The notes under the pieces: generated by a model
What the model saw: only the letters and a program-made list of their open reading frames with translations
What the model was told of the DNA's origin: nothing
Databases searched by the model: none
Part shown: positions 10,663 to 12,850 of the stretch, piece after piece
Layout: the number at the start of each line of letters is the position of its first letter
How positions within the stretch are numbered: position 1 is the stretch's first letter
Program-made: the position numbers and the translations under genes
Assembly (NCBI GenBank): GCA_019347895.1
Contig: JAHWKM010000006.1
Coordinates: 1 to 57,110 of the forward strand
Reading direction: 5' to 3'
DNA: 57,110 nucleotides
From: Candidatus Parcubacteria bacterium
Lineage (GTDB): Bacteria; Patescibacteriota; Saccharimonadia; Saccharimonadales; 2-12-FULL-41-12

Positions 10663-11262
10663 TTAGGCAGATTCTTCGGTATTAGCTGCGTCGTCATTTT
10701 GACCTGTAGCGTTGGGTTTCTTTTCTTCGGTGGTATCTTCTTCAGCATCTTCGTCTTCGGTTTCGTCTTCGGTGGTATTGCCCGGATTTCTACGATTCTC
10801 TTCTATGTCTTCCTTTTCTTCTACCTTTTCCTCTTTTTCTTCCGTATTATCATTATCCGGCTTTTGCGGTTTTGGTTCATCTTCCTCGTCTTCTTGCTCG
10901 GGCACAACCACGGGTGGCGGCGGTGTCAGTTTTTTCTGATCGAGGAGATTCCAGCCCGTATCATAAATTAAATGAATGCCTGTGTAATCGTTTAAAACGT
11001 CGTCATCATCTACTCTAAGTTGGTATACTTGTCTGTCAGAAAGTGAAATCTGCTTGACTTCTGTCACCGCGTGGCCTTGGTATTTCATTTGCGCATAAAT
11101 CAGAACATCGTAGGGCACAGGCACATTGTCAATAACCGTAGAGAGAAATGATGGCGCCGGTTTCGTGTCTTCTCCAGACGGAGCAGCAGAAACAGTGCCG
11201 CCTAGGCCGAGCATTGATATGGTAAATGCCAAAGCTATTCGCAACTTCATGTCTGCCTCCAT
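10663..11262 (-). CDS. Secreted protein with PepSY-like N-terminal domain and Glu/Asp-rich low-complexity tail
   Basis: Signal peptide; MKYQGHAVTEVKQISLSDRQVYQLRVDDDD; highly acidic C-terminal half. Confidence 0.55.
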   Translation of the reverse strand: MEADMKLRIALAFTISMLGLGGTVSAAPSGEDTKPAPSFLSTVIDNVPVPYDVLIYAQMKYQGHAVTEVKQISLSDRQVYQLRVDDDDVLNDYTGIHLIYDTGWNLLDQKKLTPPPPVVVPEQEDEEDEPKPQKPDNDNTEEKEEKVEEKEDIEENRRNPGNTTEDETEDEDAEEDTTEEKKPNATGQNDDAANTEESA

Positions 11263-11392
11263 CCGATCAGCGGTTATAAACTGATACTAAGAAAGCAGTA
11301 TAGTATTAGCTTAGTTTTGTTTCTATAATATATTTTACTCTTGCCGTAAAGAATCAAAATCATTAACTATTTTTATTTGCAATATCATTAGA

Positions 11393-11510
11393 CTGAACCA
11401 CCCGCACTTTTTGCAACGTAAGGGTTGCAAACGGAGAATGGACGAAATTGGCGCTTGAGCCAATTTCTCCTTCGCAGTGCCTGGAGTGGAGAAAAGTGTG
11501 GGTGGTTCAG
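11393..11510. mobile_element. 118-bp MITE-like non-autonomous element with 19-bp TIRs and 9-bp TSD
   Basis: Ends CTGAACCACCCGCACTTTT / AAAAGTGTGGGTGGTTCAG (1 mismatch in 19); identical 9-bp flanks ATCATTAGA at 11384-11392 and 11511-11519; internal hairpins TTGCAAC/GTTGCAA and GAAATTGGC/GCCAATTTC. Confidence 0.85.
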
Positions 11511-11542
11511 ATCATTAGATTTAGATACTAAAAAAGAGCTGC

Positions 11543-12850
11543 CTACATGCCCCACGGATAGGTTTCCGGCAAATCATCATCCGCTCTTTCGCTGTGCAGC
11601 GGATGAAGTGCGCTGGTTTTATCCAGATATATAAAAGCATCATAGCGCTCCGGTAAGACAGTCGGCACGTAGTTGCCAAGGCGTTCGCGGCCAGGATGAT
11701 AAACCACACCGATAGCTCGGTGGTCTCTCGGCTCATTAAGATTCTCCTGGCCTCGTAATGACTCCGAAAGTATCAGTTTGTCGTGCGGTTGGGCCAAGTG
11801 CATCTGTCCCTCCCAGCTTTCCGGGCGGGCTGGCGGAATAGACATCACCTGGGCCTGTCCGTCCCAAGCAGTGCTGGCAATCACCGAGCCTTCCCAGGAA
11901 CCGAAGCCGACCAGATAAACATCTTCTTCGCCGTGGGCTTCTCGGGCTAATTGGCCGATATTGATCATGCCGTGATCTATCATGTCCGTGTAGCGGGCAT
12001 CGCCGACATGGGTGTTATGAGCCCAAACGATAGCCTTGGCATTGTGGCCATAGCGCTTCATCAGGTGGGTTAGCGTAGTTTGCATATGGTGGTCGCGGAT
12101 ATTCCAAGAAGCGGTGTCGCCGCGGATCATGGTGCGGTAGTAGTGCTCGGCGTTAGCTACCACCAAAGCGTTTTGCTTGGCATTAAAGGCCGCTTCAAAA
12201 TCGCTCTCGTAGTGCGGCAGCTGCTTTTGCATCAGCTGCAATATCAGCAGCACATCCGTCTCGCAGGATTGCGGCACGAAGGCCGTGTGCCGGGCGTAGC
12301 TATGTCCGTTGCCGCTAAACGGTTCAAAGCAGCTGTAGGCCTGGCGGGCCTGCTCGGCTGCCGCCGGATCAGTCTGTTCCAGATACTCGACTACGGCGTG
12401 AATCGAATCCCACAAGCTGTAAACGTCGAGGCCATAGAAGCCGGCGCGTTTATCAATGCTTAAATCAGAGTTATGACGGCGCAGCCATTCGATCAGCGGG
12501 ATTAGTTCACGGTTGGCCCACATCCAGGTTGGCCAACGCTTGTAGGCATTTAGGACTTGGCGGGCACTTTTTTCGGTGCCTGTGTAATGCTTTATGTAAC
12601 GGTTGACCCGGTAACAATCCGGCCAATCGCCCTCCACAGCGATAAAGGAAAAGCCTTTCTCCCGGATTAGCCGCCGGCTAAGGCGTGCCCGCCAGGCGTA
12701 ATACTCGCTGGTGCCGTGCGTGGCTTCGCCTAGCAAAACAAATCGGGCACTGCCGATACTGTCTATGAGAGCGTCCATATCTTCCGGCTTGCCCCAAGGC
12801 CGGGCGCAGGCCTCTATAGCCCGAACAGGGTCGGCGGCCAGCTTAACCAT
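11543..12850 (-). CDS. Erythromycin esterase-like family protein
   Basis: FVLLGEATHGTSEYYAWRARLSRRLIREKGFSFIAVEGDWPDCYRVNRYI; IVWAHNTHVGDARYTDM. Confidence 0.9.
   Translation of the reverse strand: MVKLAADPVRAIEACARPWGKPEDMDALIDSIGSARFVLLGEATHGTSEYYAWRARLSRRLIREKGFSFIAVEGDWPDCYRVNRYIKHYTGTEKSARQVLNAYKRWPTWMWANRELIPLIEWLRRHNSDLSIDKRAGFYGLDVYSLWDSIHAVVEYLEQTDPAAAEQARQAYSCFEPFSGNGHSYARHTAFVPQSCETDVLLILQLMQKQLPHYESDFEAAFNAKQNALVVANAEHYYRTMIRGDTASWNIRDHHMQTTLTHLMKRYGHNAKAIVWAHNTHVGDARYTDMIDHGMINIGQLAREAHGEEDVYLVGFGSWEGSVIASTAWDGQAQVMSIPPARPESWEGQMHLAQPHDKLILSESLRGQENLNEPRDHRAIGVVYHPGRERLGNYVPTVLPERYDAFIYLDKTSALHPLHSERADDDLPETYPWGM

Follow-up and report, generated by a model that had tools for sequence, protein, structure and literature searches.

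A 118-bp palindromic, probably MITE-like element dispersed in a small patescibacterial genome

The described element closest in anatomy to the one reported here is MITEAba12 of Acinetobacter, which is 113 bp long, has 16-bp terminal inverted repeats (TIRs) with one mismatch around a non-coding core, and is flanked by 9-bp target duplications (PMC6382973). The two differ in sequence, since the TIR of MITEAba12 reads GGCTTTGTTGC.. and that of the present element CTGAACCACCC.., and in folding, since MITEAba12 is AT-rich and folds weakly (about -24 to -27 kcal/mol, compared to -61 for the element here). Moreover, MITEAba12 shares its host with its parent, ISAba12; for the present element, no parent was found. 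The bacterial palindromic MITEs Correia/NEMIS, ERIC, RUP and RPE are similarly small (~100-200 bp), carry TIRs and give long base-paired transcripts, but most of them have 5'-TA-3' termini (PMC2229807). The present element instead has a 9-bp duplication, and its ends bear no sequence relation to those of these families. IS4-family ends, such as those of IS10 and IS50, start with CTGA and are associated with 9-bp target duplications. Both features are shared by the present element, with no longer similarity to IS10 or IS50; because no IS4-type (PF01609) transposase was found in the host genome, we regard this resemblance only as a lead. In the literature, of which our coverage was incomplete, we found no paper that joins MITEs, in the transposon sense, with Patescibacteria, CPR or Saccharibacteria. 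This fits the statement in the initial annotation of this DNA that MITEs are little described in CPR genomes, and is not proof of absence.

Anatomy and folding of the element

The window, i.e., the whole stretch of 57,110 nucleotides analysed, is contig 24 of a 907-kb draft genome consisting of 27 contigs, a size in keeping with the CPR assignment made in the initial annotation. It contains a 118-bp palindromic insert bordered by identical 9-mers, with TIRs that pair at 18 of 19 positions, the sole exception being a G-T pair. The features are as follows (window coordinates; R1 is the covariance model described below):

11384..11392, no strand: left target-site duplication, 9 bp, ATCATTAGA (sequence and chance scan)
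11393..11411, + strand: left 19-bp TIR CTGAACCACCCGCACTTTT, the 5' arm of the outer stem (sequence, fold and chance scan)
11393..11510, + strand: whole MITE-like element, family 1, 118 bp (R1 score 135.5 bits)
11411..11430, + strand: TTGCAAC/GTTGCAA hairpin, private to the window copy (fold; absent from other copies)
11436..11473, + strand: conserved inner hairpin GAA-GGA-GAAATTGGC ... GCCAATTTC-TCC-TTC (three compensatory pairs among copies)
11492..11510, + strand: right 19-bp TIR AAAAGTGTGGGTGGTTCAG, the 3' arm (sequence, fold and chance scan)
11511..11519, no strand: right target-site duplication, 9 bp, ATCATTAGA (sequence and chance scan)

This arrangement of 9-mer, TIR, TIR and 9-mer was exactly as first annotated when the sequence was re-read. 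The 57-kb window was then scanned for inverted 19-mers within identical 9-mers enclosing an element of 50-599 bp, and 11393-11510 was the sole case with six or fewer mismatches. Ten Markov shuffles of the window yielded one case with six mismatches and none better. Both strands of the element fold far better than shuffled sequences, with energies of -61.2 kcal/mol (z -7.2) for the + strand and -53.1 kcal/mol (z -7.8) for the - strand. Two inner stems had been described in the initial annotation. The GAAATTGGC/GCCAATTTC stem is indeed kept in the other copies, but the TTGCAAC/GTTGCAA stem is found only in the window copy; in its place, the other copies can pair AGG/CCT. No ORF is confined to the 118 bp, Rfam gave no gathering-level match for the window, C2 or G081 copies (see below), and scans for promoter-like sites within the element and for terminator-like sites in the region were negative.

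The placement of the element between the stop of an erythromycin-esterase gene and an acidic secreted-protein gene was likewise as annotated. On the right, 23 bp separate the 9-mer from the end of the esterase gene (PF05139, E = 4e-121) at 11543; on the left, the distance from the 9-mer to the acidic protein gene, which begins at 11262, is 121 bp. If transcribed, the insert, now located between the esterase stop and the gene that follows, is predicted to give a stable stem. In five genomes of the same family, nothing matched the esterase gene (11543-12850), which may therefore be a recent acquisition; for the same reason, no ortholog of the window locus was available for comparison.

Copies in the host genome and among relatives

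A DNA search of the host genome revealed the element at three places in addition to the window, giving four copies on four different contigs. All four are intergenic, adjoin unrelated genes and have differing unique flanks. With respect to genes, both orientations are represented, and several copies immediately follow a stop codon or precede a start codon. The initial annotation had named, as evidence against an insertion, a lack of other copies combined with the presence, in distant relatives, of an identical 118-bp sequence at the orthologous position; what we found were three additional intergenic copies at unrelated places.

The second full-length copy (C2:11858-11975) is 86% identical to that in the window, and is paired over the same length of terminal repeat. 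Only the right-hand 77 bp remain of the C20 copy, which has an eroded left end, while the C4 copy is an internally deleted derivative of 51 bp that retains CTGAACCACCC at both ends, with perfect 11-bp ends. Around the C2 copy lie ACGCTTAGG and ACGCTTATG, an 8/9 direct repeat; if the border is shifted by 2 bp on each side, AGACGCTTA is found twice, a 9/9 match. A target duplication was not recognisable at C4, and none was seen by eye at C20. Direct repeats are thus present in only two of the four copies (window and C2).

The C2 locus could be compared with that of G001, the one further genome that we found in the genus. The divergent genes flanking this copy, encoding NDH2 and an FAD-linked oxidase, are orthologous in G001 (72% and 81% amino acid identity, respectively), and the distance between their matched ends is 75 bp there, compared to ~319 bp in the host. 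The element is absent from the G001 locus, where CCTCTTATGGTAGACT, with the duplicated motif CTTATG(G/A)TAGACT, is present once; the family-2 element that neighbours the C2 copy (described below) is likewise missing from this gap. The intergenic DNA of G001 has diverged at this locus, which is therefore not a base-perfect empty site. The FtsK-rpsF locus of G001 was considered as an empty site for the C4 copy and rejected, as its filling is different and ~400 bp longer.

Outside the host, one certain relative was found in G081, a genome of the same order. This copy was first detected by a plain DNA search (E = 4.6e-10) and is itself one of the four sequences from which the covariance model R1 was built; R1 recovered it from 393 genomes of the order with E = 3e-25. 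The other 60 nearest relatives gave no match to the element in a DNA search, and in 380 genomes of the phylum R1 found nothing besides the host genome. Clear carriers of family 1 therefore number two (host and G081) among ~770 genomes sampled. The G081 copy sits between a dnaB-like stop and another gene, showing that the copies are dispersed rather than syntenic. It keeps the core (AAGGGTTGCAA, GGACG.AATTGG/CCAATT), while its outer arms read GCGGCTCAT.. rather than the CTGAACCACCC.. of the host, in register and still paired.

In the same search of 393 genomes, R1 also gave a weak match in G119 (L059:1501-1614), with E = 8.8e-4 on the scale of a single genome. It lies in intergenic DNA, 4 bp past the stop of tsf, and keeps the core motif GGGGTTGCAAA with a broken outer stem. 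This is possibly a decayed family-1 copy, and it was excluded from the count. Most low-scoring DNA matches in the order were short, and those that were read out look coding. Searches of viral contigs with core and end patterns gave either nothing or one coding-looking chance match with no second end nearby, and a search of a genome collection gave one chance match within an apparent ORF of a Flavobacteriaceae contig. Plasmid and phage records contained no match.

Paired arms and a second palindrome family

On a structure drawn from the four family-1 sequences, compensatory changes were observed in ten base pairs, of which seven belong to the outer stem. Shuffles gave 3.7 such pairs, and none of 500 reached ten; sliding the pairing partner abolished the signal. 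The compensatory changes in these four sequences, from which the structure itself was drawn, suggest that the fold is maintained as well as the ends.

A palindrome beside the C2 copy served as the seed of a second family (family 2), with further copies in the host genome and one in G004. The model R2 identified six copies, including a diverged one in L109, in ~360 kb sampled of the host. Together with the G004 copy, these make seven:

L005:3737-3830: family-2 copy, seed
L099:6831-6932: family-2 copy
L093:2524-2626: family-2 copy
L110:7821-7917: family-2 copy
L108:10362-10461: family-2 copy
L109:6556-6654: family-2 copy, diverged
G004 L086:1492-1584: family-2 copy in G004

The core of family 2, GAGCTCTCTACRGGKTTCGCTNNGCTCNNGCCYGTGGCGTTTGCRAC, is ~82% identical among the seven copies. 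The arms, ~20-28 bp long, are near-perfectly paired, with a mean match of 89% to their own partners, but match only at 52% between copies (41% in a shuffled-arm control). No consistent target duplication was found. In the L099 copy, an epimerase-like gene has its start codon within the left arm. R1 matched three family-2 copies weakly (E = 0.014, 0.015 and 0.31), in the orientation predicted by a common GTTTGCAAC motif, a hint, not proof, that the two families may be related.

Long inverted repeats are more numerous overall than in Markov controls, approximately nine-fold in the host (22 vs 2.3) and four-fold in G001 (7 vs 1.7). Some of them fall within coding regions, probably by chance. A third kind of palindrome (L109:158-243, L092:2404-2481 and L103:3505-3587) has conserved ATCCCGTTAGAA/TTCTAACGGGAT ends and 16-18-bp arms around ~50-60 bp of unrelated interior. 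Palindromes of 165-173 bp with copy-specific arms were seen at L099:2696-2866 and, in G001, at L124:16507-16676, L129:2005-2177, L111:682-846 and L121:4221-4385. By eye, three of these have a common inner pattern, ..CTGCGAT....CTTCTCGA.AAGAAAAT, and they are possibly a further, older family. A single intergenic region (L091:10514-10589 and 10674-10877) holds two strong, unrelated inverted repeats with arms of 19-21 bp.

Mobilization and alternative explanations

Among 40 window proteins scanned with Pfam, none is a transposase, in agreement with the annotation. A six-frame search of the host genome for PF01609 (IS4/IS5-type) and PF00872 (IS256-type) transposases was also negative, while control genomes were positive. 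The search for a full insertion sequence with the ends of the element, which the initial annotation had proposed, was fruitless: no complete IS with these ends was found in the host genome, an incomplete draft, and matching pairs of such ends occur only at the known copies. We infer that a DDE transposase acts in trans, with no candidate parent found; the parent may have been lost, may lie within assembly gaps or may be too diverged to see.

The ends, the duplications, the dispersion, the deletion derivative and the element-free orthologous locus, taken together, make a non-autonomous MITE-like insertion the best reading, and in our judgement a quite probable one. The dispersed copies, the 9-bp repeat at C2 and the C2 locus that is element-free in the congener all support the original claim. 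The element is short and lacks a transposase gene, and it has TIRs, a target duplication, dispersed copies and an element-free site, as expected of a MITE. A MITE need not have ends that match an autonomous element, since for many of those described no parent is known; in the present genome, the negative searches restrict what can be said of the mobiliser. In such an insertion, a transposase of the DDE type supplied in trans would bind the 19-bp ends and move the element, making cuts staggered by 9 bp, and gap repair would leave the 9-bp duplications. The strong hairpin could be retained because it functions as folded DNA or RNA or, alternatively, because the arms of the palindrome undergo mutual correction as the DNA is replicated.

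The strong folding (z about -7 to -8), the ten compensatory pairs in outer and inner stems (reached by 0 of 500 shuffles, in only four sequences) and the several copies immediately after stop or before start codons would also suit a dispersed family of structured non-coding RNAs, either cis-acting 3' or 5' elements or sRNAs, whose fold is under selection and whose direct repeats are secondary or relics of past spread. We consider this unlikely, since there is no Rfam match, the copies lie at unrelated loci in both orientations to genes, only two clear genomes among ~770 carry them, neither a terminator-like site in the region nor a promoter-like site inside the element was found, and the 9-bp repeats at two sites and the element-free ortholog point to insertion. 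A chance palindrome or an assembly artefact is extremely improbable, even though the assembly is a draft in 27 contigs: chance is excluded by the scan, the copies lie on four contigs with different unique flanks, and the homolog in the independent genome G081 refutes an artefact.

Several observations count against the MITE-like reading. No parent IS and, for the two families searched, no transposase was found, no further pair of matching ends exists in the genome, direct repeats flank only two of the four copies, and the ten compensatory pairs suggest that structure, too, is maintained. In the G081 copy, the core is kept and the arms are changed, the reverse of what TIR recognition by a transposase predicts. 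Likewise, because the arms of family 2 differ between copies, transposition by TIR recognition alone is insufficient as an explanation. The family-2 contrast between a core 82% alike and arms that match their own partners at 89% and other copies at 52%, the arms of the G081 family-1 copy, rewritten in register, and the weak R1 matches, oriented as predicted, to three copies of family 2 would all be accommodated by a wider class of palindromes that spread via the core and whose outer arms are created anew at every site, e.g., by fold-back copying. This we hold to be rather unlikely: the family-1 copies in the host have common arms, two with 9-bp repeats like an ordinary MITE, the two families are only weakly linked, and slow divergence with compensatory or palindrome-correcting change could also yield copy-specific arms. 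The joint proposal that families 1 and 2 form one class of mobile palindromes in the order, with a conserved core, mobility independent of the terminal-repeat sequence and 20-28-bp arms re-created at each insertion or re-matched later, is doubtful. The complementary rewritten arms of G081 and family 2 may reflect selection for the fold, correction of palindromes during replication, or copying that re-makes the arms. Family 1 is a real, probably undescribed MITE-like family that is ordinary in kind, with the rewritten arms as its one unexplained feature.

A miniature transposable element in a very small genome (~0.9 Mb), for which the searches for PF01609 and PF00872 transposases were negative, provides a concrete, testable case. 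The family-1 element has also led to a set of dispersed hairpins whose arms differ in sequence and stay complementary. If it is true that the arms are re-made upon each insertion, this would constitute a mode of propagation outside the standard models for MITEs.
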